Below are positions 9,398-51,130 of a stretch of DNA of 57,857 bases, piece by piece. The stretch spans positions 1-57,857 of the forward strand of contig NZ_VOUA01000024.1 of assembly GCF_024372725.1 (NCBI RefSeq), read 5' to 3'. Each line of letters starts with the position of its first letter. Position 1 is the stretch's first letter. The translations under genes were made by a program, and so were the position numbers. The notes beneath the pieces are model-generated. The model did not search any database, had not been told where the DNA came from, and saw only the letters and a program-made list of their open reading frames with translations. The stretch is from Methanosarcina sp. KYL-1 (GTDB lineage: Archaea > Halobacteriota > Methanosarcinia > Methanosarcinales > Methanosarcinaceae).

Positions 9398-10693
9398 ATG
9401 CGAGTTCTCAATAGAATTTCTGAGATTAAATTTGCAGGATTATTAGCCGTTATTATTTTAGTTGCTTCGGTTTCGGGGTGTATGAGTTCAGGTTCGGATA
9501 AGAACAATTCAAGCTCCAGTCCGGATGCAGAGGTGACACTGAGTCCGGATTCAGGTAAGAACAATTCAAGTTCCAGTCCGGATGCAGAGGTGACACTGAG
9601 TCCGGATTCAGGTAAGAACAATTCAAGCTCCAGTCCGGATGCAGAGGTGATCTCTTCAGCACCTGATGGAAATATTACGTTTATTACTACCGGTTCGTCA
9701 TTTTCGCCAATTATCACAGTTACAGGCAATCCTGAAATTCAATGGGTATTTGAGGACGGTTCAACATCCGATTCCGCGTCTCCTACTATAGATTTTGGTT
9801 CAAGGGGGACAAGAGTAAACACTCTGGTAGTAACACCATGGAGTGCAGTAACCGGGATCAATATAGGTTATGATGGTTCGGATGGAGGAGTAACTCCAGG
9901 TCCCGATACAATCGAAAATTTAGAACAACAGAATGTAATAGCTGTTACAGGTTTAGAAAATGTTGCACCGTACCTCCAGGTATGGGCTTCGAGTTATAAC
10001 CCGATAACGGCGCTGGATTTCAGTAACTTCACGGCACTGCATACGATTGAATGTTTCCATTGTACATCATTGGCTACCATCAGTCTCCGTAACGTTCCGT
10101 CTCTGACCAGGCTTTGCCTCGAAAGATGCAACATTTCTTATCTTGATCTATCAGAGGCTCCTTCCCTGGCTGATCTTCGCGGAGCAGCCCAGAGAAGTTC
10201 AACATATACAATAAATTGGGGCACTACAGGAGCTCATACATGGCATATATGTGTTGGAGCCAACCCGGATATGACCGGCACATTACCATCCGGTCAGTTT
10301 CCGATTGTGAAAGATTTCTACGTTTGGAACGGTAATCAAAGCGGGACTTTACACCTGAGTTCTACAGATTTAATAAGAGTTCGAGCAAACGATAATCGTT
10401 ATAGTGTTGCTGTTCTTTCCGGTTGTTTTCCTGCTGGTAGAGAAGGTTTTGTGGAAATTTATAATAATAACCTCACAAGTTTGGATATTTCCAATGACCC
10501 CGGTTTACTTCACTTAAATGCCAGCCGTAATTCACTAAGTCAAACAGCAATAGACGGGGTACTCCAAACACTGGATTCTTATGGTACTGATGCCGGGCGT
10601 TTAGATTTAACCGGAAATGCTGCACCATCAATTACAGGAATAGCACATGCAAATAATTTAACTGCCAGGGGATGGAAGGTTCAAACTTCGTGA
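9398..10693 (+). CDS. Lipoprotein with leucine-rich-repeat-like domain and repeat stalk
   Basis: A 431-residue surface protein. Residues 1-27 form a signal peptide ending in the lipobox VSGC (Cys28 as lipid anchor). Residues about 32-88 are a Ser/Asn/Asp stalk made of a 19-residue repeat, SSSSPDAEVTLSPDSGKNN. The rest has a beta-rich region and LRR-like strands such as ITALDFSNFTALHTIE, LATISLRNVPSLTRL and LTSLDISNDPGLLHL, as in bacterial-type leucine-rich surface proteins. I chose ATG at 9398 because TTCAGGAG precedes it; 50 further codons are open upstream but would put a non-signal sequence in front of the signal peptide. It probably sits on the cell surface and binds protein or glycan, which is inference. 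Confidence 0.8.
   Translation: MRVLNRISEIKFAGLLAVIILVASVSGCMSSGSDKNNSSSSPDAEVTLSPDSGKNNSSSSPDAEVTLSPDSGKNNSSSSPDAEVISSAPDGNITFITTGSSFSPIITVTGNPEIQWVFEDGSTSDSASPTIDFGSRGTRVNTLVVTPWSAVTGINIGYDGSDGGVTPGPDTIENLEQQNVIAVTGLENVAPYLQVWASSYNPITALDFSNFTALHTIECFHCTSLATISLRNVPSLTRLCLERCNISYLDLSEAPSLADLRGAAQRSSTYTINWGTTGAHTWHICVGANPDMTGTLPSGQFPIVKDFYVWNGNQSGTLHLSSTDLIRVRANDNRYSVAVLSGCFPAGREGFVEIYNNNLTSLDISNDPGLLHLNASRNSLSQTAIDGVLQTLDSYGTDAGRLDLTGNAAPSITGIAHANNLTARGWKVQTS
9500..9653 (+). repeat. 57-bp tandem repeat inside the lipoprotein gene
   Basis: A 57-bp unit starts at 9500, 9557 and 9614, the third copy being partial. Copies differ by only one or two bases. It encodes the Ser-rich stalk; copy number probably varies between strains by slippage. 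Confidence 0.9.
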
Positions 10694-10816
10694 ACTACCC
10701 CCTTTGTAAATTTTACCGGTTTTATAGGGAACCCACAAAATACGGAAACAATTCTACTCAAAAACAATTCTACTTTTTTCATTGCCATTAGTTTGCCGCA
10801 TGGAATCCATATATCA

Positions 10817-11365
10817 TTAGGAGATACTGAGCCCTTTAACTCGGCATTTGAGTGGTGAGAATATGTTGAGGGGTGACTTGCGAATCAAAGGACGTTTTCT
10901 ACAATAATTGTATTCAGGTAATTGTCTCACCAGTGGTGAGATTTTTTCATCTGCCATGTCAGCGACAAGAGCTCGATTTTTTTGGCAGATAGATTGTGCA
11001 GCAAGCCGCTGCACAATTTAGGGGGGACTTTCTAGCAGATGATCTGCTTAATTTTTCAGGCTCAATTGTCTATGCAGTACGGAGACAATCTGCTCATCGA
11101 ATTGTCGTATCAGTGCAGCGACAATTTTCTGCCCATATTCCCCCTTTTCCCTTCGAGTTTCTTCTGCCAATTTTCATAAGCGGCTAATAAGCAGGAGATT
11201 GTGCAAGAGGCTCTTGCACAATTCTCTCTCAACAAGACCGAAAGTTCCCATAATTTGTGGAGTCCTTTCCTGGCAGATGATCTGCTTAATTTTTCAGGCT
11301 CAATTGTCTACGCAGTGCGGAGACAATCTGCTCATTGAATTGTCGTCTCACTGATACGACATTTC
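10817..11365 (-). pseudogene. Decayed fragments resembling DUF1016 (YhcG-type nuclease family)
   Basis: No intact gene lies here, but three minus-strand stretches read like pieces of the DUF1016 N-terminal region: DEKISPLVRQLP (about 10930-10960), YGQKIVAALIRQF followed by DEQIVSVLHRQLS (about 11055-11135), and QFNEQIVSALRRQLS (about 11295-11340). Intact family members contain motifs like QIVxTLSRQLSWSH and SPLVRQLPWxHN. Two of the fragments share a near-identical segment of about 85 bases (11035-11119 and 11275-11358). The DNA is also full of inverted repeats such as ATTGTGCAAGAG/CTCTTGCACAAT, so an alternative is a structured noncoding element. Confidence 0.4.
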
Positions 11366-11383
11366 CTTTTATCTGGTATATGT

Positions 11384-11581
11384 TCACTGCTGCTGGGAGT
11401 AAGTCAGCGCGAAAATGGTATCTGTTAGGGTTCTGCGGAAAGATTCGTTGTCGCTGAACAGTTTGAAAAGCTGGGTGTCGTCTTTCAAAAGGGCAGTCAT
11501 TACCCGCGCCAGGGCTTTGTCGTGTTCTATCCTGGCATTTTGGGTGGAGTGAGCGTATGCAATTTGATTTTCAGGGTCCAT
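11384..11581 (-). pseudogene. hsdR: Likely remnant of the C-terminus of a type I restriction HsdR subunit
   Basis: The 65-residue frame contains NARIEHDKALARVMTALLKD, then DTQLFKLFSDNESFRRTLTD and FALTYSQQQ. This resembles the very end of many HsdR subunits, where an EHxxAL...LLKDDTELFKxFxDNxSFxRW stretch precedes the stop. The nuclease and helicase parts are missing and there is no hsdS or hsdM nearby, so it is probably a leftover from a lost restriction locus. It could also be expressed as a tiny protein, since the frame is intact. The call comes from memory of the family. Confidence 0.4.
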
Positions 11582-11771
11582 TGTTAAAAATCTATTAAAC
11601 TGATTTTAGTTTCAGAAACCTTCTCTGAAGTTATAATTCGTTAATTATATAATCCGTGGCATATTTGTTGTTTTGTGATTGTTGTTTTAGGATCGTTGCT
11701 TTATTCCTGATTCTACTACTTTATGGGGATTTGTGTTCTGCTTTTTCATAAGAAGTGGGGGTTGCTAATTT

Positions 11772-14700
11772 ATGAAAATAAATGCAGGGATCATTTTTTT
11801 GTTGATGTGTATTGTTTCTCTTACGGTTATTGCACCAAATGTAACGGTAGCCGATGCTATATCTGTTGAAAAGTTAACAGCGGTGACATCTAATACCGCA
11901 GATGAATGGGACCCTGTCTGGTCTCCCGATGGAAATGAAATCCTTTTCAGAAGGAACGGAGAAATATACAGGATGTTTTCCAACGGTTCGGGAGAAATGC
12001 AATTAACCGACACAGGTGGCGGTGCAGGGTACCACTCATGGTCGCCTGACGGAAGCAAAATTTTATACAGCTTTCTTATTGATGACCTGAATTGCAATAT
12101 CTGGGTCATGAATGCGGATGGTTCGGCAGAAACCAGGTTGACAGGTTTTGAAGATTCGCCTCTTCAATTCGGAAGACACGAGTACGGGACCTGGTCTCCT
12201 ACGGGTTCAAAAATAGCTTACGTAGCCAGTCTTGATGACATTGAAGCTTACGTTATAACGATGAATGCTGACGGGTCCGATAAGCAGGTAATTGCAGGCC
12301 CTGTAGAGATGTGTTACATTAATTATCCGGCCTGGTCACCTGATGCCTCGAAAATTGCCTTTGCAACAGATCCACTTGTTACAGAGCGGTACATCGGAAT
12401 TGTAAATTCCGACGGAAGCGGTCTTATCACAATCCCGAATGGGTTTTTGACATCCTGTACCCAATCGTGGCAGTCTCAGGTGTGGTCTCCTGACGGTTCA
12501 AAAATATTGTATTCTTCTGATGAGTCTGGAAATGAAGATATCTACATCATAAATGCCGATGGGACCGGGAAAACCCGATTGACCACAGATGCGGGAGATG
12601 AACATGACCCGCGTTTTTCCCCGGATGGGAGCCGGATTTTATTCGTATCCGGCTGGGGTGGAAACTCTGACATCTGGGTCATGGATGCAGATGGAAGCAA
12701 TAAAGTGCAGTTGACTACAGATACAGCATATGATAGTGATCCCATGTGGAGTCCTGACGGCACGAAGATTGCTTTTAGTTCTGATAGAAATGGGAATTTT
12801 GATATCTGGGTGATGGAGCTTTCTGAAGATTCCGTAGAACCTCCTGCTCCTGAAATCGTAAGCGTAAGCTTTGAGCCCCAGACCGGCGTTTATGCGGGCG
12901 AAACAGCTACCATCTCCGTGACCGTAAAAAATAACGGTGGAAAGTCTGGTGAAGGTTATGTCATCGTTTCGTTTCCTAATGATGAAGAAATAATGAGCCT
13001 TGGAGGAAGCAGTGACAATGTTAAAACCTATCCGGCTGGAAGTGAAATTTGGGGCAGGGACGGAATAATTGATTCATCGGAATATACTCTTGTTGAACTT
13101 TATGAGCCTGAATGGGAAACCGGGCAGGAAGAAACTCTAACAATCGAGGTGAAACCGAATGAAGGTTCGGACGAAATAGTATTCCTGGTGAGAGCAGCGT
13201 TGAAAAATGATGCTACAGGCGATTACGAAAGAGCTCCGGAGTCTTCGGATGACCTTGACCAGCAGGGCTGGTATGCGGATAAGTATTCTATTGATGTATA
13301 TCTTGAAGAAGTAAAATTCAGAGGAAAAATTCTGGAAGATAGACCAGTTATTTCTCTTTACTCCTTTGATGTTCAAATCGATGAAATTTTAGATGATTCG
13401 AAGGGAAACTTGAAGGTAGGGGATGTTATTCCCGTGACCGGTCATCGGGACGGGCCTGCTCAAGTGGATGCCGTAACAGTGGGAGAAGAAGTTGAAGTTT
13501 TTGGTGAATATAGAGGAGACAAGGTATATCTCAGCGATTTTGATGACCTTAGTTCTGAACATTATCTTATCAAAATCGAACCCGATGAACCTCCTTCTCC
13601 GGAGATCACCAGTGTCACAATCGCCCCTCCGGAAGGGGTCCCTGAAGATGGAACAGCCTCCATTAAGGTAACCGTAAAAAACAATGGTGGAAAGTCAAGT
13701 GAAGGTTACATAACTGTTTCGTTCCCCTATGATGAAGAAATCTTGAGTGTTACTGGCACGGGTAATGGACACAATGAACTTTACCCAAAAGGCAGTTCCA
13801 TTTATGGAAAGGATGGTCCAATAGATCCTTCGGATCATCCGCTGGGAGAACTCCAGGAATTTGATTGGGACACCGGGCAAGAGGAGACTCTTACAATTGA
13901 GGTGAAGCCGAATGAAGGTTCGGATGAAATCGTATTTCTGGTGAGAGCAGAATTGAAAAATGATGCTACAGGGGATGATGAAAGAGATCCGATTTCTTCA
14001 GATGAAATTGATCAGCAGGGCTGCTACGCTTATAAGTACTCTTCTAATGTGTACCAAAGGTCCAATTTGATTATAGAGAATGTCTATGTTCAGGGCAGTG
14101 AAATTATATATGAAATTAAAAATGTTGGCAAAGTCACCGCTTCGTCGAGTTATACTTATCTTTACATTAATGATATGAGCAATCATGTTGCTTCTGATCG
14201 TGTTGATGATTTAGAATCGGGAGAAGATGCTACCTTAATTTTCGATTATTCGTATACTTATTCTGGAGGCACCGATGAAATTAAAGTTTGTGCTGATGGA
14301 AATGGGGAAATTAATGAAGAGAGCGATAGTGACAACTGGAAGAATATAACTTATTCGGGAGAAGAATCCAAAAACATCATCGAAACATTAGGAGCTGATG
14401 AAAGCTTTACCACTTTCGTTTCATCTCTTGAAGCCGCTAACCTCGCCGAAACCCTCAGCGGGGAAGGACCCTTCACTGTCTTTGCACCGGTAGATGATGC
14501 CTTTGCAGCCCTTCCTGAAGGAACCCTCGATGCACTAATGAGTGACACCGAAAAGCTGACTGAGATTCTACTGTACCATATAGCTGATGTGAAAATAATG
14601 GCCGCAGATGCCGGCAGCCTGGCTAGTATTTCAACTTTGCAGGGCGGAGACATCACTGTCAGTGTGGCCGGCGATGGCAGAGTGTTTATCGGGGATGCCG

Positions 14701-15956
14701 AAATTATCCTGAAAGATATCGAAGCTAGCAATGGCGTGATTCATGCAATCGATACGGTAATGGTCCCGCCGGAAGAGCCGGGGGAAGATGAAGGAGCTAC
14801 GGTCCTCTATGATGACGAAGTAGCCCTGAAATCCGGAAATTTCACATTCGTACCTGTAAATAACGTTTCTGCAAGCTATAAGGTGGATTACTTTACCGAC
14901 CTCGGAGCGCTTTATTCCTCAGGACTCGAATTTGAAGCAACAGATGAGTGGCACGATTCTACGGGTGAATTTTACCTTGAAAGTATCGGAGGAATAAAAA
15001 ACAATCTTGAAACCGGGGCATGGTTCATTTTCATAAACGATGGCCTGGCTCCCTCCGGTCTGGGTCTGAACGGGGTACAGGACGGGGATAATGTCTCTTT
15101 CTATTTTGCTCCCTACGAGGAACATACCCCTATTCTTGAAAATGCCATCTATGTGGTGAATCTTGAGGTTGCTTCTGAAAGTGATAACAGTTCTTCTGTT
15201 CCCTCTTCCTCCGGTAGCGGCGGAGGTAGTGGTGGTGGTGGCAGCAGCAGTGGCGGCGGTGGCGGTGGAGCCGGCTCTCCCGAACCTTCCAGAAACATTG
15301 AAATCAAAGAACTGTCCCAGGAATTCATAACAAACGGAAACCATGCAAAATTCAAGTTCCCGCGGAATGCTACCTGCATAACGCATGTTGAATTCGACCC
15401 TAAGAGAACCTTTAGCAAGGTCACCACAATGGTTGAGATGCTCAAAGGCAAATCTGCTATTGTCCCGGACTTACCTGCCGGTGAAGTTTACAGGAACGTA
15501 AACATCTGGGTGGGAAATGAAGGGATGGCAACTCCGAAAAATATTGAAAATGCGGTTGTCGGATTTAAGGTTGAAAAGGCATGGATTGAAGCCGGTATCG
15601 ATGAAGGTTCAATAACCCTGTACAGGTACAGCGATAAGGCCTGGAATGAACTAACTACTCGAAAGCTTGGAGAAGACGAAAATTACGTGTACTTCGAGGC
15701 TGAAACTCCTGGCTTCTCACCATTTGTGATCGTTGCCGGGGGAGTGGAGACCGTGGAGGAAGAAAGCAAACCATCAGCCTCTTTCGAGGACTCGGATAGG
15801 GATAAATTGGAGTCTGCCGAAAATGAATCCTTTGAAGTTGAAATGACCGGATCGGAGAGCACTGAAGGCGGGATCAAATCAAAGATATTGATGTCAATTG
15901 TTTTGTTTTCGGTCTTGATTCTGGTCGGATACATAACTTTGAAGAAGCGGGATTAA
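11772..15956 (+). CDS. Giant surface protein: TolB propeller, CARDB-like, FAS1, DUF4430-like and PGF-pre-PGF domains
   Basis: A 1394-residue secreted and anchored protein. Residues 1-29 are a signal peptide. Residues about 35-351 contain TolB-type beta-propeller repeats (WSPDGxxILF, MNADGS, IAFSSDRNGNFDIWVM). Two homologous CARDB-like blocks follow at about 360-500 and 610-753, sharing VKNNGGKSxEGY and ETLTIEVKPNEGSDEIVFLVRA, with a third at about 765-858. A fasciclin FAS1 domain covers about 866-1000 (GPFTVFAPVDDAFAALPEGT), a DUF4430-like domain about 1008-1133, a Gly/Ser linker about 1136-1171 and a PGF-pre-PGF domain about 1174-1322. A transmembrane helix and a KKRD end anchor the C-terminus. 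It is probably a cell-envelope adhesion or matrix protein. The gene stands alone with long AT-rich flanks. Confidence 0.9.
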   Translation: MKINAGIIFLLMCIVSLTVIAPNVTVADAISVEKLTAVTSNTADEWDPVWSPDGNEILFRRNGEIYRMFSNGSGEMQLTDTGGGAGYHSWSPDGSKILYSFLIDDLNCNIWVMNADGSAETRLTGFEDSPLQFGRHEYGTWSPTGSKIAYVASLDDIEAYVITMNADGSDKQVIAGPVEMCYINYPAWSPDASKIAFATDPLVTERYIGIVNSDGSGLITIPNGFLTSCTQSWQSQVWSPDGSKILYSSDESGNEDIYIINADGTGKTRLTTDAGDEHDPRFSPDGSRILFVSGWGGNSDIWVMDADGSNKVQLTTDTAYDSDPMWSPDGTKIAFSSDRNGNFDIWVMELSEDSVEPPAPEIVSVSFEPQTGVYAGETATISVTVKNNGGKSGEGYVIVSFPNDEEIMSLGGSSDNVKTYPAGSEIWGRDGIIDSSEYTLVELYEPEWETGQEETLTIEVKPNEGSDEIVFLVRAALKNDATGDYERAPESSDDLDQQGWYADKYSIDVYLEEVKFRGKILEDRPVISLYSFDVQIDEILDDSKGNLKVGDVIPVTGHRDGPAQVDAVTVGEEVEVFGEYRGDKVYLSDFDDLSSEHYLIKIEPDEPPSPEITSVTIAPPEGVPEDGTASIKVTVKNNGGKSSEGYITVSFPYDEEILSVTGTGNGHNELYPKGSSIYGKDGPIDPSDHPLGELQEFDWDTGQEETLTIEVKPNEGSDEIVFLVRAELKNDATGDDERDPISSDEIDQQGCYAYKYSSNVYQRSNLIIENVYVQGSEIIYEIKNVGKVTASSSYTYLYINDMSNHVASDRVDDLESGEDATLIFDYSYTYSGGTDEIKVCADGNGEINEESDSDNWKNITYSGEESKNIIETLGADESFTTFVSSLEAANLAETLSGEGPFTVFAPVDDAFAALPEGTLDALMSDTEKLTEILLYHIADVKIMAADAGSLASISTLQGGDITVSVAGDGRVFIGDAEIILKDIEASNGVIHAIDTVMVPPEEPGEDEGATVLYDDEVALKSGNFTFVPVNNVSASYKVDYFTDLGALYSSGLEFEATDEWHDSTGEFYLESIGGIKNNLETGAWFIFINDGLAPSGLGLNGVQDGDNVSFYFAPYEEHTPILENAIYVVNLEVASESDNSSSVPSSSGSGGGSGGGGSSSGGGGGGAGSPEPSRNIEIKELSQEFITNGNHAKFKFPRNATCITHVEFDPKRTFSKVTTMVEMLKGKSAIVPDLPAGEVYRNVNIWVGNEGMATPKNIENAVVGFKVEKAWIEAGIDEGSITLYRYSDKAWNELTTRKLGEDENYVYFEAETPGFSPFVIVAGGVETVEEESKPSASFEDSDRDKLESAENESFEVEMTGSESTEGGIKSKILMSIVLFSVLILVGYITLKKRD

Positions 15957-30308: not shown

Positions 30309-33110
30309 TCAGCCTTCTGCCCCCTCAAGTTCCTTCAATTTCTGCTCGCAAAAGCTAATTATCCTCAGGTCTTCAATCGCCTTTCCTATAGCCAGAGATT
30401 CCTTCAAAAACTCAATTGCTTTACTGGGCTCGCCCAGATCACTGTACAGGTTACCCAGATTTCCAAGGGCATTTCCTTCTCCGCACCTGTCCCCTATATC
30501 TTTAAAAATTTTGAGTGCCTTTTCGTAATATTCAATTGCTTTTCTGGGCTTGCCCAGATCACTGTACAGGTTACCCAGATTTCCAAGGTGATTTCCTTCT
30601 CCGCGCCTGTCGTTCATTTCTCTTGAAATTTTGAGTGCCTTTTCGTAATATTCATTTGCTTTTCTTGGATCGCCCATATGACTGTATGCTGACCCTAGGT
30701 TTCCAAGCCAATTACCTTCATTTCGCCTGTCACCTATTTCTCTTGAAATTTTGAGTGCCTTTTCGTAATATTCAATTGCTTTTCTTGGATCGCCCATATG
30801 ACTGTATGCTGACCCTAGGCTTCCAAGCCAATTACCTTCATTTCGCCTGTCGCCTATTTCTCTTGAAATTTTGAGTGCCTGTTCATGATATTCAATCGCT
30901 TTTCTGTGTTCACTTAGATAACTGTATGCGCTTCCCAAATTTCCAAGGTCTGAACCTTCTGCGCGCTTGTCGCCTATTTCTCTTGAAATTTTGAGTGCCT
31001 GTTCATGATATTCAATTGCTTTTCTTAGATCGCCCATATGACGGTATGCTAACCCCATATTTCCAAGGGTATTTCCTTCAGTTTGCATGTCACCTATTTC
31101 TCTTGAAATTTTGAGTGCCTGTTCGTAATATTCAATCGCTTTTCTGTGTTCACTCAGATTACTGTATGCACTCCCCAGATTTCCAAGCCAATTACCTTCA
31201 TTTCGCCTGTCGCCTATTTCTCTAAAAATTTTCAGTGCCTTTTCGTAATATTCAATTGCTTTTCCCACAAATCCTAATTGCTGGTATGTGAGTCCAAGCT
31301 CACCAAAAACAAAAGACTTCATTTCAATGCTTAAAAGGACTTTTTCTTTGAGAGGATCGGCTGGTAGTAACCGCCTGTACAATGTTATAAGGGTAGTGTA
31401 CTCTCCCCATATCTCAAAATAAACGTGTAGCTTTGAATGAAGAATAATCTGTGAAGCCAGATCATACATTCCCGCTTCGCATGCATGATGGTGGGCTTCA
31501 ATTGCTGACTGGAGTCCTTCTTTCGTTCTGGGGTTTTTGGGGAGGGGGATGTAGAGATAATACTTACAGGCTACTGCATGGGCTTCAGTCTTTTTTTCCA
31601 AGTCATCGTAGGCGAATTCCCGGACAAGGGGATGGAGCCAGTAACTGCTACCGTGGTTGGTTTCGAGGAGGGACTTGTCAGTTAATTTTTTGACAGCGTT
31701 TGCGGGAGTCTTTTCGGTAAACATTATCTTTAGAGCCTTCAATTCTACAGGTTCCCTATAAACGGAGATCCTTTCGAGAAGTTCTTTCTCGTCTCCTGCC
31801 AGTTTATAAAACAACTTTCTTGCTTTTTTTATAGTGTCCTCCGTAGATTTTCGGTACATGCTTAGGTCTTCAAGAATGTCAGTTGCTCCAAATTCCTTTA
31901 CTAGCTCCACAAGCAGCTTCAGGGCAAGGGGGTGGCCGTCCACGCCTGCCGCCAGTTCTTCCAGCTTTCGGGGTTCCACTTTGTCAAGCCCGTTTCTCAC
32001 AAGGTAGTCAACCGCAAAGTCCTTTTCCAAGCCGTTCAGGTGCTGTTTTTCTTCGTCTTCCACAACGTCGATCAGGCTTTCCCCGTTTTCGAGTACGGGC
32101 AGAATCCGGCTTGTTACGATTACTTTTGCGTTATGGGTGCTGTATCGCAGGGAAGAAAAGAGGAGTTCGATTCCCTTATCCTTGAATTGCCTGTCTTCAA
32201 GCATGGTGCTCAGGTCATCGAAGATGAGCCAGACCTGGCTTCTTCTTTGCAGTTCGTCTGTGAGTTTGTCCACGTCGGTTTTTCCGGGCTCCCGCCTTTC
32301 GGCTTTGAAGGCTGCAATTTCAGGGGCGTTCATGTAGGCGGCGAGTTTTTCAAGGATGTCGCCGAGTTTTGCGCTCTGGTTCTGGTTGAAGTTGAAATAG
32401 AAAGGTTCGGGGACGTTTACGGGCCTCAGGTCTACGAGGGCTCTTGCGAGGGTGGACTTTCCCACGCCGCCAACTCCGCTAATAAGTAAAATCCGGTGGT
32501 TTTCAAGGTACATGAGGTCTTTTTTTAGCTCATCGGCCCGGTTCCGGGTAACAAATTGCTTCAGTTTATCAGGGTAATGGGGGAGGGTTGAAGGGTTGTA
32601 GCGGCTCAGGATTTCCTGGTTTGCGGCTTCTTTTCTCTGCTGATTCAGGTATTCGATGATCTTGATGAATTCGTCGCCTGAAGGGCTTTCAAAGTTGAAA
32701 AAATTGTTGTAATTTCCGACTGCAAGTTGACCATAATTTTCAAGATTTTCGATATTGAGATTTATGGTAAATTCTATTTCTCTGGCAAGATCCGGGTTTT
32801 CCACCAGCAGTTTGAGGATTTCCTGCTGCAATTCTTCCTTTGCTTTAGGGTCTTCGGAGTTTTTGGACACCTTTGTGAGTGCTTTTCCAAGGGATTCAGT
32901 CATTTTTGGGCTTATCTTACTTAGGAGAGCCTTTACTCTTCTCCCGCTTTCGGAACCAAGCTTTTCAATAACTTTCTCGTAGGCCATGTCTTCAAGAACT
33001 TCTTTGCCCTTATCTGCTACGGATTTTCCTGCAAGAGTCAGGAAAGGCAGGGCTGGAAGAAGAATATTAGTTGCCTGCTGGGCAATGGTTTCGAGGGTTA
33101 CCGGATCCAT
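30309..33110 (-). CDS. STAND ATPase with eight TPR repeats
   Basis: A 933-residue protein. Residues 1-150 form a helical N-terminal region that may be the effector or signalling domain (ending near NLNIENLENYGQLAVGNYNN). The NB-ARC-like ATPase has Walker A GVGGVGKST (about 210-218), Walker B VWLIFDDLS (about 290) and a TSR sensor (VIVTSRILP), then a winged-helix region (SSYWLHPLVREF). Residues about 610-925 hold eight 40-residue TPRs of the form KAIEYYEKALKISREIGD, nearly identical to each other. STAND proteins of this kind bind a ligand through the repeats and then oligomerise; relatives act in phage defence (Avs-like), programmed death or signalling. ATG at 33110 with GGAGGAG before it is preferred over TTG four codons upstream. 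Confidence 0.88.
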   Translation of the reverse strand: MDPVTLETIAQQATNILLPALPFLTLAGKSVADKGKEVLEDMAYEKVIEKLGSESGRRVKALLSKISPKMTESLGKALTKVSKNSEDPKAKEELQQEILKLLVENPDLAREIEFTINLNIENLENYGQLAVGNYNNFFNFESPSGDEFIKIIEYLNQQRKEAANQEILSRYNPSTLPHYPDKLKQFVTRNRADELKKDLMYLENHRILLISGVGGVGKSTLARALVDLRPVNVPEPFYFNFNQNQSAKLGDILEKLAAYMNAPEIAAFKAERREPGKTDVDKLTDELQRRSQVWLIFDDLSTMLEDRQFKDKGIELLFSSLRYSTHNAKVIVTSRILPVLENGESLIDVVEDEEKQHLNGLEKDFAVDYLVRNGLDKVEPRKLEELAAGVDGHPLALKLLVELVKEFGATDILEDLSMYRKSTEDTIKKARKLFYKLAGDEKELLERISVYREPVELKALKIMFTEKTPANAVKKLTDKSLLETNHGSSYWLHPLVREFAYDDLEKKTEAHAVACKYYLYIPLPKNPRTKEGLQSAIEAHHHACEAGMYDLASQIILHSKLHVYFEIWGEYTTLITLYRRLLPADPLKEKVLLSIEMKSFVFGELGLTYQQLGFVGKAIEYYEKALKIFREIGDRRNEGNWLGNLGSAYSNLSEHRKAIEYYEQALKISREIGDMQTEGNTLGNMGLAYRHMGDLRKAIEYHEQALKISREIGDKRAEGSDLGNLGSAYSYLSEHRKAIEYHEQALKISREIGDRRNEGNWLGSLGSAYSHMGDPRKAIEYYEKALKISREIGDRRNEGNWLGNLGSAYSHMGDPRKANEYYEKALKISREMNDRRGEGNHLGNLGNLYSDLGKPRKAIEYYEKALKIFKDIGDRCGEGNALGNLGNLYSDLGEPSKAIEFLKESLAIGKAIEDLRIISFCEQKLKELEGAEG
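30327..31285 (-). repeat. 120-bp tandem repeat encoding the TPR array
   Basis: Eight in-frame 120-bp units, some differing by only a few bases (for example the units near 30661 and 30781). The high DNA identity points to recent expansion or gene conversion, so the repeat number may vary between strains and may be misassembled. Confidence 0.9.
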
Positions 33111-33653
33111 AAACTCCTCCAATTTCTTTTTTAATATTGGTAGCAGGTAAAATAAGTTTTGTCATTTGGGATGTCAAAAAGTGGGAGATTCGGGTTTTTT
33201 CGCGATAAAGTTCAAAGGCTGGTGGAAATTTCTAAGCTGCTGCTTCTTTTCAGTCTTCAGGGAAAAGCCGTTCGCCTTCGGCGAACGTGAGTGGGCATGG
33301 TGAACGAAATGGACCGCGTACTGCCTAGGCGCAATTCGGCTGGCACGGGCGTTAAAACTGGATGGTTGCCCTGTTTTTGAAAATGAGCAGATTCAATTGG
33401 AGCCTTGTTTAAAGAAAATGAAAATTCGAGGCAGGTTAATTTGTAGATGGGAAGAATTCAAGAAAAGGTAAGGCAAGGAAAAAGTTTCCTGAAATTTTTT
33501 AAGGACTATTGATTACTACGAAATAATTATTCTTTTTGTTTTATATAACTAGTAATTATATTACTCCTTACACTTACTGGTTGGCTAATTTAGATACGTT
33601 ACGTTCAAAACTGATAGATTTGATGCTAAATTAGCTACTGGAGGATATGGTAT
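33111..33653. other. Divergent intergenic region with a diverged hairpin element
   Basis: No gene seen. The hairpin at 33258-33300 (GGAAAAGCCGTTCGCC, then GGCGAACGTGAGTGGG) is a distant copy of the GGTGAGAGCC family. The last 150 bases are AT-rich with a TATA-like TTTTATATAACTAG near 33538-33551, likely the promoter region of the secreted protein gene. Confidence 0.5.
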
Positions 33654-46462: not shown

Positions 46463-48856
46463 GTGATCCAGGTCGCCCTCTACGGGAAGGGAGGTATAGG
46501 CAAGTCCACGGTTTCTGCCAACCTCTCGGCTGCCCTTGCCAGTTCGAAAAAGCGGGTCCTGCAGGTAGGCTGCGACCCGAAACACGATTCCACTCGTCTG
46601 CTCCTTGGAGGAGCGGGCATCCCCACAGTGCTGGACTATGTGCGCGAAACTCCCCGGGAAGCGCAGCAGCTTGAAGCCCTGGTCTTTGAAGGCTACGGGG
46701 GCACTGCCTGCGTGGAAGCCGGGGGGCCGAAACCCGGGGTTGGCTGTGCGGGCCGTGGGATCCTGAGCAGTTTTGAGGTCTTAAAACGCCTGGGGCTCAG
46801 GGCTTCTTCCTTTGACGTCGTCCTTTATGATGTGCTCGGGGATGTGGTCTGCGGCGGGTTTGCAGTCCCTCTCAGGAAAGAATATGCAGATGCGGTTTTT
46901 CTGGTGACTTCCGGGGAATACATGGCCCTGTACGCAGCCAACAACATCCTCCGGGGTATCCGGAATTTCGAGGACGCAGCCCCAAGGGTTGCAGGCATCA
47001 TCTTCAACGGGCGGGGAATTTTTGCCGAGGAGGAAAGGGTCTTTGCCTTTGCCCGGGCAGTGGGGCTGCCTGTGCTGGCGTCCATCCCAAGGGACGAAGT
47101 CTTTTCCCGGGCTGAAAAAGCCGGAAAGACCCTGATAGAAGCTTTCCCTGCCTCTGCTCCTGCAGGTCTTTTCAGGGAGCTGGCAGGGTATGTGGAAACC
47201 CTGGAAAAGGACCGGAACCTGCTCCATCCCGCCAACCCCCTCGGTGACCTTGAGCTTGAAGCCCTGGTGCTGGGAAGGCGGGAACGGCCCTTTATAAAGC
47301 CTTTCGGCACAGGTCCTGCACCCGGAAAAAAACCTGGTGCTAAGCCTGGTTCCCTCAGCCTGGAAAACAGGTATTCCGCAGAAATCTGCACTGAGATACC
47401 TGAAGTTCAGTCTGCAGAACTATCTTCAGGAATTTCCGAAAAGAAGTCCGTAGAAATCCCCTCCGGAATTCCCGAAGCGCAGTCTGTAGAAATCCCCTCC
47501 GGAATTCCCGAAGCGCAGTCTGTAGAAATCCCCTCCGTAACTCCCGAAGAAGTGTCCGCATCATCCCCGGCGTCACCTCCCACCAGGCCCCCCCTTTACG
47601 GCTGTGCCTTTTCAGGGGCTGTGACTGCGACTTTTCAGGTTGACGATGCCGCCACGGTCCTGCACGGGCCGGGGAGCTGCACCCATATCACGGCCGATGC
47701 CCTTGCCTGCTCTTATTTAAGGGGCAGGGGAAGAGCTGTCCCCACAGGTGCGGAAAAGCAGACCCCTGGCCTCCTGCCGACAGATATGGAGGAAGAGGAC
47801 GTCATCTTCGGAGGGCTCGAAAAGCTTGAGAGGAGAATCGAAGAAGCCCTTTTGACCGGCTGGCAAACGGTCTTTGTGGTGAACACCTGCCCCGGAGGGA
47901 TCATAGGAGACGACATAAGAGAGGCAGCCTCAAGAGCCGAAGTCCGTTTTCCAGGAGCCAGGGTCATCCCCGTCCCTGTGGAAGGGGTCCTTACGGGAGA
48001 CTTTTCGACCGGGCTGCTTGAGGGCTGCAAACGGGTTGCCGACCTGATTGACCCTTCCGTCAGGCCCGAAAAAGGCCTGGTCAACGTGATCGGGGAAAGG
48101 AGCTTTTTCCTGCGGGGGGAGGAAGACTTCCGTACGGTCGAGAGGCTGCTCAAAAGGCTGGGGTACGGGGTCAACTGCAGGTTTTTAAAAGGGACAGATA
48201 CCCTTTCCCTTCGCTCCTTAAAAAAAGCGGAAATCAACCTGCTTGCCTGCGACGACCCCGAGACCCGGGCCCTGCAGGCATACCTTTCCGGGCGTTTCGG
48301 GCTTGAGTTTTTTGAGCTTCCTTTTCCTGTGGGTTTCCGGGAAAGTTCCCTCTGGGTAAAAGCCCTGGCAGCACGCCTGCTTCCCGGAAAGGACCCCTCC
48401 CCCCTGCTGCAGGAGCAGGAAAATGCGTACAAAGCAGGAATAGGGAAATATGCCCCCCATCTCTCGGGAAAGAGCGTGCTCCTGGTGAGCTACAGCGAGG
48501 ACATTGGCTGGGTCCTGGACACGATCCGGGACCTGGGAATGGAAATCCTCAAGGTCGGGATTCCGGTCTCGTGTTTCGGGAGGGAAAGTCCGGGCCTCCT
48601 GTCCCGTGAAGGCTTTCCGGTAGAGAGAAACTATACGGATGCAAAGAGGGCAAAGGATGTCAGGGGCCTCAGGCCGGACCTGGTCCTTTCGAGTTATGTC
48701 CCTTCGGCCCCTGAGGAAGGAGTGCACTACGATACTATCCCCTTCTCCCCTCAGGTGGGGTTCCTGAGCGGGCTTGAACTTGCAAAACGCTGGAGTACGC
48801 TTCTGCGGCTGCCGGTTACGGAGGGATGGAAGTATGACGGAGGTGATGAAAGTTGA
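46463..48856 (+). CDS. Nitrogenase-like fusion: NifH-type ATPase joined to a NifD-type subunit
   Basis: A 797-residue protein. Residues 1-265 are a NifH/BchL-type iron protein: P-loop GKGGIGKST (8-16), CDPKHDSTRLLLGG, and both [4Fe-4S] cysteines in GVGCAGRGI and GDVVCGGF. A Pro/Ser/Glu-rich linker with a 12-residue repeat (SVEIPSGIPEAQ) spans about 280-375. The C-terminal part is NifD-like, with P-cluster-type cysteines at Cys381 (YGCAFSGA), Cys406 (HGPGSC) and Cys476 (NTCPGGIIGDD), spaced as in NifD Cys62/88/154. Cys596 (NLLAC) falls at the spacing of cofactor ligand Cys275. The cofactor His (NifD 442) appears to be Val765. The start is GTG at 46463 after GGGGGA. CfbC/CfbD and nitrogenase use separate H and D proteins, so this is a distinct group of unknown substrate. 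Confidence 0.9.
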   Translation: MIQVALYGKGGIGKSTVSANLSAALASSKKRVLQVGCDPKHDSTRLLLGGAGIPTVLDYVRETPREAQQLEALVFEGYGGTACVEAGGPKPGVGCAGRGILSSFEVLKRLGLRASSFDVVLYDVLGDVVCGGFAVPLRKEYADAVFLVTSGEYMALYAANNILRGIRNFEDAAPRVAGIIFNGRGIFAEEERVFAFARAVGLPVLASIPRDEVFSRAEKAGKTLIEAFPASAPAGLFRELAGYVETLEKDRNLLHPANPLGDLELEALVLGRRERPFIKPFGTGPAPGKKPGAKPGSLSLENRYSAEICTEIPEVQSAELSSGISEKKSVEIPSGIPEAQSVEIPSGIPEAQSVEIPSVTPEEVSASSPASPPTRPPLYGCAFSGAVTATFQVDDAATVLHGPGSCTHITADALACSYLRGRGRAVPTGAEKQTPGLLPTDMEEEDVIFGGLEKLERRIEEALLTGWQTVFVVNTCPGGIIGDDIREAASRAEVRFPGARVIPVPVEGVLTGDFSTGLLEGCKRVADLIDPSVRPEKGLVNVIGERSFFLRGEEDFRTVERLLKRLGYGVNCRFLKGTDTLSLRSLKKAEINLLACDDPETRALQAYLSGRFGLEFFELPFPVGFRESSLWVKALAARLLPGKDPSPLLQEQENAYKAGIGKYAPHLSGKSVLLVSYSEDIGWVLDTIRDLGMEILKVGIPVSCFGRESPGLLSREGFPVERNYTDAKRAKDVRGLRPDLVLSSYVPSAPEEGVHYDTIPFSPQVGFLSGLELAKRWSTLLRLPVTEGWKYDGGDES
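47450..47540 (+). repeat. 36-bp tandem repeat encoding the H-D linker
   Basis: A 36-bp unit starts at 47450, 47486 and 47522 (third copy partial) and encodes SVEIPSGIPEAQ. Diverged versions occur just before it (SAELSSGISEKK). This is a flexible spacer between the two enzyme domains that can change length in whole-frame steps. Confidence 0.92.
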
Positions 48857-50154
48857 TTTTTTCCCCGGACGCTTTTACGGGTTCTATCCTGGCGGTGGAA
48901 GGCATCAGGGATGCGGCTGTGATCCTGAACGGGCCTACAGGGTGCAAGTTATACCACAGTTTTTTCTCGGACAGGCAGTTTCCCCGGGAAAGTTCACATG
49001 ACCCCATGGCATTCCAGGACGAGTTCTATTTCGGGCAGCCCAGGGTCCCCTGCACCTGCCTGGAAGGGGAGGACTTCATCCTGGGCTCCCTTGAAAAGTT
49101 TGAAAGGGCACTTGCAGCAGTGGCAGCAAAAGAAACAGGCTTGCTTGTGGTGATTAACTCTCCGGGAGCAAGCCTTGTGGGCGACGACCTGGAGAGTGTA
49201 ATTAAAAAGGCAGGGCTGCAGGACCGCTGTTTTGTGATGGAAAAACCGGGTTTTTCCCTTCCCGCAGCCCGGGGCTTTGAAAATACCGCCCTTGCCCTGC
49301 TCGAACACATGAAACTCCGGCCCCTCCCCCACCCCCAGCCTCTCCATCACTTTGCCTCCCCTAAAAAGGTGAACCTGATAGGGCTTTCCCTGCTCCACAA
49401 ACACTGGGAAGGCTCGGTTGCAGAAATGAAGCGGCTCCTGGCTTTCCTGGGCCTGGAAGTGGGAGCTGTTTTCCTTGCCGGAACTTCCCTCGACGAAATC
49501 CGGGAATCGAGTGATGCAGCCTGCAATATCGTCCTTTTCCCCGAATACGGCAGAAGGGTTGCGGAGTGGTACCGGGAACGTTTCGGGACCCCTGCCGTGT
49601 TTTCGCCCCTGGGGGCTCCCCTGGGGTTTGATGCGAGTGAATGCCTGCTGAGGGAAGTTGCAGCTGTCCTGAATATCGACCCTGCCCCTGCCCTTGCGGA
49701 AGTCAGGAAAGCCAGGCAGGCCAGTTACCGGCAGATTTCACGTTTCCATTCGTTCTCAGGGCTCCCCAAAGGAGCCAGCTTTTCAATCAGGGCCGAAAGC
49801 TCCCTTGCCTTCCCCCTTACACACTGGCTTTACTCCTACCTGGGCATGGCCCCCCTTGCAGTAAGACTGCTTCCCGGAAGCGACCCTGAAGCATCATCAT
49901 CTCTCAAGGCGTTTCTGGAGGAAAAGGGCTTTTGCGAAGCCTGGGAAAGGGACCCTGCCCTGGAATCGGCTGATATTGCCTTTGCTGACGCCCATACCCT
50001 GCAGCTTTTAAAAGCAAAGGGGTGCTGCAAAGCCGGAATCGAAATCGCCCTTCCGGATGGAGGGTACATCCACTTTATCCCAAAAACGTATCTGGGTGTT
50101 TCGGGAGCCCTCCTCCTCCTCGAAGAAATCATAAACGGGCTGCGCTCCACCTGA
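48853..50154 (+). CDS. Nitrogenase-like NifK/NifE-type partner subunit
   Basis: A 433-residue protein of the nitrogenase component 1 family, the likely heterodimer partner of the fused D domain. Features in order: SPDAFTGSILAVEGIRDAAV, NGPTGCKLYHSFF with Cys31 at the NifK Cys95 position, VPCTCLEGEDFILGSLEKF (Cys67, Cys69), and INSPGASLVGDDLE, where the third P-cluster cysteine (NifK Cys153) is replaced. NifK Cys70 also appears to be missing, with Asp5 nearby, which recalls the Asp ligand of BchB. The start is TTG at 48853, after a perfect GGAGGTGAT, and overlaps the TGA of the fusion gene as TTGA, so translation is coupled one to one. The cluster at the interface is therefore likely a [4Fe-4S]-type or altered cluster. 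Confidence 0.86.
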   Translation: MIFSPDAFTGSILAVEGIRDAAVILNGPTGCKLYHSFFSDRQFPRESSHDPMAFQDEFYFGQPRVPCTCLEGEDFILGSLEKFERALAAVAAKETGLLVVINSPGASLVGDDLESVIKKAGLQDRCFVMEKPGFSLPAARGFENTALALLEHMKLRPLPHPQPLHHFASPKKVNLIGLSLLHKHWEGSVAEMKRLLAFLGLEVGAVFLAGTSLDEIRESSDAACNIVLFPEYGRRVAEWYRERFGTPAVFSPLGAPLGFDASECLLREVAAVLNIDPAPALAEVRKARQASYRQISRFHSFSGLPKGASFSIRAESSLAFPLTHWLYSYLGMAPLAVRLLPGSDPEASSSLKAFLEEKGFCEAWERDPALESADIAFADAHTLQLLKAKGCCKAGIEIALPDGGYIHFIPKTYLGVSGALLLLEEIINGLRST

Positions 50155-50290: not shown

Positions 50291-51130
50291 TTATTTGGGA
50301 GTTTCACATACACCTGTTCCGACAGCGTTTTCGAGGTTGTTAATTTCAGTGACCTGTTCGGAAAGGTTTTTGTAATACTCGAAGAGTTCTTCGCCCCAGG
50401 CCAGGGCTCTGGGGTCAAAGCTTCTTACGTATTTCCGGTCAAAGACCGCTTTTTTCGGGAAGAGGGCTATACCCATGAAAATATCCGTAACCGTAAGGTT
50501 TGGGGTCCTTTCGCAGTCCCTGCATACAAGGAGTTCGGTATTTTCCAGATTTATGAACTGCTCGGTTATTTCCCTGTAGTCTTCAATCCACCTTTTCAGA
50601 ATTGATTCAGGGAGGATGATGGAAACCTGGGCCCCATTTCTGGCAACCTCAATGTAAAAGGAAGGGAAAAGTGGATGAAAATATGAAATTATTGCCTTTA
50701 TTTTCTTTGCTTTTCTCATATTTTTGGCAAATTCGGGGATCAGTTCGAACATGTGGTCTATTTCAGGTTCGACTGTGGTGCAGTGCCCTAACTCACTGAG
50801 TCTTCGCATGAGGGAAGGAGGAATCGATCCCATATCCCTGTCTGCCCAGTAGTCCGCGTTTTCCTCAAGCACGGCAAGGGTTTCCACCAGAGGCTGCATC
50901 TTTTCGACCACTATTTTCCCGATATCCGTAAGTTTGTAGAGGTCTTTATCCTGAGCCACAAGGTGCTGTTCCTTGAGCTTTTTTATCTGGGGCTGAACCG
51001 CTGTTGGACTGGCTTTAAGCCGCTCTCTCAGTGTTTCAAGGTTTTTTGGGCCTTCCATCAGGAGGAGGAGCACATTCTTTCTTTTATCAGATAAAAATAT
51101 CAGGTCCAGTAAAGGGGTTTCCATATCCAT
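50291..51130 (-). CDS. FilR1/Msr-type transcriptional regulator
   Basis: A 279-residue regulator. Residues about 10-70 form an ArsR-like winged helix (RKNVLLLLMEGPKNLETLRE, PTAVQPQIKKLKEQHLVA). The rest is a ligand-type domain of the FilR1 (DUF1724) family, with the conserved KIKAIISYFHPLFPSFYIEV and VCRDCERTPNLTVTDIFMGI. Methanosarcina Msr proteins of this family activate methanol and methyl-sulphide methyltransferase genes. Here the gene runs tail to tail with the nitrogenase-like pair, so it may or may not control it. A TATA-like TATATAAC element lies about 65 bases upstream (51193 region). Confidence 0.88.
   Translation of the reverse strand: MDMETPLLDLIFLSDKRKNVLLLLMEGPKNLETLRERLKASPTAVQPQIKKLKEQHLVAQDKDLYKLTDIGKIVVEKMQPLVETLAVLEENADYWADRDMGSIPPSLMRRLSELGHCTTVEPEIDHMFELIPEFAKNMRKAKKIKAIISYFHPLFPSFYIEVARNGAQVSIILPESILKRWIEDYREITEQFINLENTELLVCRDCERTPNLTVTDIFMGIALFPKKAVFDRKYVRSFDPRALAWGEELFEYYKNLSEQVTEINNLENAVGTGVCETPK

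Follow-up and report, generated by a model that had tools for sequence, protein, structure and literature searches.

A fused nitrogenase-like reductase in Methanosarcina sp. KYL-1 and its probable link to corrinoid salvage

We analyzed a stretch of 57,857 nucleotides (nt) from Methanosarcina sp. KYL-1 (contig NZ_VOUA01000024.1, positions 1 to 57,857, forward strand; hereafter the window), in which positions 46463-50154 carry a gene encoding a NifH-type iron protein (H) fused to a NifD/E-type domain (D), followed by a gene encoding a NifK-type protein (K). The HD and K products (HDK) probably form a self-contained nitrogenase-like enzyme that uses ATP to drive reduction of a corrinoid or a closely related tetrapyrrole, acting in the salvage or remodelling of imported corrinoids; we put the probability of this reading at roughly 60%. 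A first-pass annotation of the same DNA had proposed a reductase without naming a substrate. The assignment as a reductase is retained here, whereas the substrate class can be narrowed to corrinoid/tetrapyrrole salvage through the gene context and riboswitches of the relatives. The fusion, the coupling, the clade, the ligand pattern, and the operon and riboswitch association of the relatives were computed directly; the cluster type, the substrate, the reaction, and the role retained by the window copy are what we infer.

The locus contains the following features, all on the + strand.
46463..48856, +: HD fusion gene, 797 amino acids, GTG start, no internal stop (open reading frame [ORF], Pfam, and fused orthologues).
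46463..47269, +: H domain, NifH-type iron protein, residues 1-269 (Fer4_NifH), with the P-loop, C95 (46745-46747), and C130 (46850-46852).
47273..47593, +: H-D linker, low complexity and predicted to be disordered, about residues 271-377.
47408..47549, +: tandem repeat of 36 bp in 3.9 copies, coding for part of the linker (TRF).
47594..48853, +: D domain, NifD/E-type, residues 378-797 (Oxidored_nitro).
47603-47605, 47678-47680, 47888-47890, and 48176-48178, +: D cysteines C381, C406, C476, and C572, respectively, invariant in 27 homologues.
48853..50154, +: K gene, NifK-type, 433 amino acids, TTG start.
48943-48945 and 48868-48870, +: K residues C31 and D6, respectively, invariant in homologues; D6 is at the NifK Cys70 position.

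Pfam matched Fer4_NifH to HD residues 3-269 (E 5e-89) and Oxidored_nitro to residues 381-781 (E 3e-71), and K was a second Oxidored_nitro protein (E 9e-43); hence both the alpha and beta component-1 subunits are present. The TTG start of K overlaps the HD stop by 4 nt (TTGA). In H, the P-loop GKGGIGKS and the cluster cysteines C95 and C130 were invariant in the 27 homologues, and this combination of a P-loop with bridging [4Fe-4S] cysteines identifies H as a Fe protein of the nitrogenase superfamily. The linker (residues 274-378 at pLDDT < 50 in the AlphaFold model) ranged from 36 to 115 residues among homologues. What the first-pass annotation had described, H fused to D with K coupled behind, is thus real and correctly placed, since the ORF is open throughout and fused orthologues occur elsewhere. 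It also holds that no nifE, nifN, nifB, or bch genes lie close to HDK in the window.

The fusion was carried by 19 of 150 genomes of the order, KYL-1 included, all belonging to one taxonomic family, and the other 18 carriers all had a fused HD with K behind it. Searching with only the D domain, a query without bias towards fusions, extended the HDK family to Methanomicrobiales, Chloroflexi, Firmicutes, and Coriobacteriales. All 28 clear family loci in this search (L056-L083; L and G numbers are our handles for loci and genomes) had a fused HD with K next to it, although K is broken in one of them; L084-L088 from the same search were more distant, unfused nitrogenase-type genes. The search with K alone showed a sharp gap, with members scoring at least 470 bits, apart from a broken copy that scored lower, and the proteins ranked next reaching about 125. 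The expectation that fusion and K always occur together was borne out, K being coupled in every locus whose region was examined. An assembly artefact was ruled out as the origin of the fusion, because 18 other Methanosarcinaceae genomes and 17 further loci of Methanomicrobiales, Chloroflexi, Firmicutes, and Coriobacteriales share the fused ORF followed by K. The sole unfused exception among the family loci was L151 (genome G957), where a single TAA splits H and D. This locus (9517-11772) lies in a Tissierellales-like genome, and the TAA may be a natural split, decay, or a sequencing error. In Methanolobus profundi (L054/L079), K is seemingly frameshifted, with two overlapping partial matches and a 362-residue ORF, and HD is intact. 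The family is uncommon: it was found in 22 of 393 genomes of the phylum and in 5 of 398 genomes sampled around Formimonas.

To place HDK, trees were built with NifHDKEN, group-IV, BchLNB/XYZ, and CfbCD references, of which the Bch and Cfb sequences were few and long-branched and CfbC was represented once in the H tree. H formed one clade (ultrafast bootstrap 85; Shimodaira-Hasegawa-like approximate likelihood ratio test [SH-aLRT] 96), and D and K each formed one clade (SH-aLRT 100, quick tree). As H, D, and K are each a single clade, the fusion most simply would have arisen once. These clades lay outside NifHDKEN, CfbCD, DPOR, COR, and group-IV enzymes; accordingly, the separation of HDK from CfbCD and NifDK, on which the first-pass annotation depended, is seen in the trees. 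Identity with CfbCD was rejected: H scored best with the CfbC model but reached 319 bits against a cut-off of 402, the tree position differed, a K gene was coupled, and the genome has its own cfbCD.

The cluster ligands of HDK resembled those of tetrapyrrole reductases. C381, C406, and C476 of D, kept in the 27 homologues, align with the P-cluster cysteine columns of NifD and the cysteine columns of BchN/BchY, and C572 is a family-specific invariant cysteine in the same homologues. The sole cluster cysteine of K, C31, occupies the column of NifK Cys95, the BchZ Cys, and BchB Asp36; equivalents of NifK Cys70 and Cys153 are lacking (D6 at the former, S/P at the latter), and four of the six P-cluster cysteines are retained. 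The column of NifD Cys275, which binds FeMo-co (the iron-molybdenum cofactor), holds C in the window and H, Y, F, K, or G in relatives and is therefore not conserved. Cysteine fills this column in each of the aligned Nif references and, with one exception, in the group-IV references; BchN/BchY have no cysteine there. The simplest prediction from the alignment is one [4Fe-4S] cluster with three cysteine ligands from D and a fourth from K, as in tetrapyrrole reductases, without N2 chemistry. This alignment-based pattern for a predicted cluster matches the COR arrangement of three alpha ligands and one beta ligand, an assignment reportedly made by Kiesel et al. in 2015. BchY/BchZ contain a [4Fe-4S] cluster (PMC7242693).

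The K model (pLDDT 87) was closest to BchB of DPOR (Z 37.6, 391 residues, 2.5 Å), followed by MarK (Z 33.6) and NifK (Z 32.6); Foldseek E-values placed MarK first. The H model matched NifH structures with Z 35 over 267 residues, and the structure search with the HD model (VIA-align) returned a list filled by H-domain matches. A common fold does not demonstrate function.

The ligand columns and trees bear directly on two other readings. A small-molecule reductase with large nitrogenase-type clusters, like MarHDK or isethionate reductase, would suit the standing of MarK as the best PDB sequence match of K and its top position by Foldseek E-value. However, we regard it as very improbable, given that the cysteine at the Cys275 position is unconserved, K retains just one cluster cysteine out of three, neither a NifB-like gene nor sulfur-metabolism genes were found beside HDK, and the trees set HDK apart from the group-IV references. 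That HDK is a nitrogenase or a NifDK/NifEN-like scaffold for cofactor maturation is hardly credible: the FeMo-co ligand and two of the three K P-cluster cysteines are missing, D and K form clades apart from NifDKEN, and relatives are found in B12 operons, although D matches NifE and NifD profiles and the same genome has a nif cluster. The ligand columns and trees led us to reject HDK as a standard nitrogenase, NifEN, or MAR.

The neighborhoods of the relatives pointed to corrinoids. In a Methanolobus-like locus (L049), the gene order was cbiZ-chlI-chlD-btuF-fecCD-ABC-HD-K-cbiK-cobN, all named from Pfam. Operons of the btuFCD type with HDK were present in L049, L051, L053, L146, and L147; the ABC ATPase gene and HD share 4 nt in L051 and L053. 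Four Methanomicrobiales genomes (L145-L148) had most or all of the L049 set in varying order, and parts of the cluster were found in L071, L074, L078, Chloroflexi L067, and Methanococcoides. In Chloroflexi, CobN, ChlI, and ChlD adjoin HDK without CbiK. A CbiK orthologue occurred in 6 of the 150 genomes of the order, all of them HDK carriers, once on another contig (G113); the hypergeometric P for this co-occurrence was about 2e-6 with phylogeny ignored. CobN in general was uninformative in this respect, as 98 of the 150 genomes have one. A xylose-isomerase-like TIM-barrel protein was also part of the archaeal cluster (L145-L147, L050, and L048), and a DUF1638 gene lay directly upstream of HD in L039 and L040. 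In the Methanolobus locus L052, HDK adjoins ORFs that resemble hemA, hemB, hemL, and hemC on reading of the sequence.

In Firmicutes, HDK neighbors an SLH/toroid protein, DUF4430, CbiQ/EcfT, EcfA, and an ECF S component. We take the DUF4430 and toroid proteins to be transcobalamin-like. In L068, a cobalamin riboswitch precedes HD by 269 nt; in L077 and L083, such riboswitches head the transcription unit that contains HDK, and in L073 and L076 they lie in neighboring units. Overall, 5 of 12 bacterial loci had a riboswitch versus 0.46 expected (P about 4e-5, estimated roughly from a Poisson model that takes no account of B12 genes clustering together). L066 has an AdoCbl-II element behind K. L150 contained several riboswitches whose link to HDK was not clear. 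The main argument for a corrinoid role is convergence: uptake systems of two unrelated kinds and an RNA sensor all point to corrinoids.

This context would also accommodate a cobalt reductase, converting Co(III)/Co(II) of imported corrinoids to Co(I) for an adenosyltransferase or for upper-ligand removal and leaving the macrocycle untouched. Corrinoid uptake operons headed by riboswitches fit such an enzyme, as does the CobO/BtuR adenosyltransferase gene that adjoins HDK divergently in L151, adenosylation requiring cobalt(I) (PMC7242693). It would suit Methanosarcina as well, where the L042 copy lies ~3 kb from genes for a B12-binding protein and a dimethylamine methyltransferase. Nevertheless, the characterized relatives with [4Fe-4S] only (DPOR, COR, and CfbCD) reduce macrocycle bonds, cobalt reduction is performed by simpler flavin or ferredoxin systems, and the archaeal cluster's chelatases (CobN/ChlID and CbiK) would be left unexplained; we consider this explanation possible but doubtful. 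The chelatases are addressed by a different proposal, in which HDK with CobN/ChlI/ChlD and CbiK reduces an imported metallo-tetrapyrrole for metal removal or exchange, comparable to the action of HmuS on haem. CobN, ChlI, ChlD, and CbiK adjoin HDK in archaea, as do all but CbiK in Chloroflexi, and the CobN-like HmuS takes iron from haem, showing that CobN relatives can remove metal (PMC12583661). On the other hand, chelatase genes were not found beside Firmicutes HDK, HmuS works without an ATP-driven reductase, and CbiZ and cobalamin riboswitches indicate a supply of corrinoids rather than haem. A demetallation role thus appears unlikely.

Several results weigh against HDK being a reductase of a corrinoid or related tetrapyrrole. 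CbiK, CobN, and other chelatase genes were not found beside the Firmicutes copies examined, and about half of the bacterial loci are without a cobalamin riboswitch. Corrinoid-type context (a riboswitch or transport genes) was absent around 46463-50154, and a CbiK orthologue and a close CobN were missing from the Methanosarcina copies. No conserved neighbors of HDK were found in Methanosarcina, synteny being shared with one relative, L042. In sequence ranking, K matched MarK first (best PDB match E 2.7e-20; profile 123 bits) and the D profile scored highest with NifD/NifE/MarD; sequence alone therefore gives no pointer to tetrapyrrole reductases. For the Methanosarcina copies, a corrinoid role would follow from membership of the clade, that is, by homology.

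If HDK acts as a corrinoid or tetrapyrrole reductase, its mechanism may be envisaged as follows. The Fe protein H would be tethered to the catalytic alpha subunit D and would dimerize, with a [4Fe-4S] cluster held between the two subunits by C95/C130. ATP binding would dock H on a D/K half, and low-potential electrons would pass singly to one [4Fe-4S] cluster (ligated by three cysteines of D and one of K) and onward to a tetrapyrrole lodged in the cavity occupied by FeMo-co in nitrogenase. The group reduced would most likely be the macrocycle, as in DPOR, COR, and CfbCD, and otherwise the corrinoid cobalt. Since the characterized relatives with the same ligand logic all reduce tetrapyrrole macrocycles, the ring is favored, with cobalt second and help in metal removal third. 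Because H and D are present 1:1 and H must dimerize for its cluster, the (HD)2K2 complex suggested in the first-pass annotation would have one H2 per two catalytic halves. The halves could then not be served at once and would alternate, work as half-of-sites, or form bridged complexes; bridging or half-of-sites working is plausible given linkers as short as 36 residues.

Elsewhere in the same genome, there are a separate nif cluster (C1:384961-392700) and a separate cfbCD (contig C25), so the organism already has genes for nitrogenase and the F430 reductase. Upstream of HDK in the window are genes for an MBL-fold protein and a radical-SAM protein. A FilR1-type transcription regulator gene at 50291-51130 (-), convergent with K, is a possible regulator of HDK in Methanosarcina; a similar-looking gene also follows K in L042, whose locus includes the B12-binding protein and dimethylamine methyltransferase genes mentioned above. 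A gene downstream of HDK reads by eye as thiC. The window further encodes a 1394-residue PD40/CARDB/fasciclin protein (11772-15956) and a 937-residue STAND-type NTPase with TPR repeats (30312-33122).

The fused architecture itself is not new. Fused nifH/nifE with nifN-like genes was mentioned without data by Dos Santos et al. in 2012 (PMC3464626), and a fused nifH/nifE gene by Borrel et al. in 2014 (PMC4153887). Those reports share with HDK the iron protein-alpha fusion in one ORF with a beta-type gene behind it, and both lists include Archaea and Firmicutes; the genes are likely the same sequences. They consist of one sentence or table entry without sequences or function, whereas the clade, ligands, distribution, and corrinoid context are described here. 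In the literature searched, no function was described for the fused family, as the first-pass annotation had presumed. Likewise, no paper was found that links a nitrogenase-like enzyme to corrinoid metabolism, an absence that is weak because most subscription journals and all preprints outside PMC were not covered. The corrinoid/B12 setting of the family appears to be the new part. Operon-2 of Dehalobacter restrictus, which comprises CbiZ, a BtuFCD-type transporter, CobN, and Mg-chelatase subunits, has a cobalamin riboswitch and is induced 346-fold on corrinoid starvation (PMC4285132). Its partner genes are nearly those of the archaeal HDK cluster, and no nitrogenase-like gene is mentioned there.

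If the corrinoid reading is true, it would give the nitrogenase superfamily a new biological role and supply a missing redox step in B12 salvage. Should the link hold, HDK would offer a natural fused reductase-catalyst for studying DPOR/COR-type chemistry, and the orphan fusion of 2012 would become directly testable through a predicted regulator (the cobalamin riboswitch), substrate class, and cluster. We advance more tentatively, at somewhat below even odds, that HDK is a third lineage of nitrogenase-like tetrapyrrole reductases after DPOR/COR and CfbCD, with its own Fe protein attached and dedicated to corrinoids. The ATP-driven reduction of a corrin or corrin-derived ring would then be a new anaerobic B12-salvage step common to methanogens, Firmicutes, and Chloroflexi.

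Among known systems, MarHDK resembles HDK in its heterotetramer-type D and K and is the best sequence match of K; it differs in having P-clusters, an [8Fe-9S-C] cluster, and a separate Fe protein, and HDK is without those ligands. CfbCD, the Ni-sirohydrochlorin a,c-diamide reductase of F430 synthesis, shares Fe-S-based tetrapyrrole reduction, the best model for H (CfbC), and a small chelatase neighbor (CfbA there, CbiK at HDK), but CfbD is a homodimer without K, and the clade is different. DPOR (BchLNB) and COR (BchXYZ) are alike in their H plus D/K components, the absence of the FeMo-co cysteine, the K fold, which is closest to BchB, and the use of three alpha cysteines and one beta ligand for a single [4Fe-4S] cluster, as predicted in HDK. 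In contrast to HDK, which lies in corrinoid-uptake operons of non-phototrophs, these enzymes have a separate Fe protein, form separate clades, and belong to a bacteriochlorophyll context.

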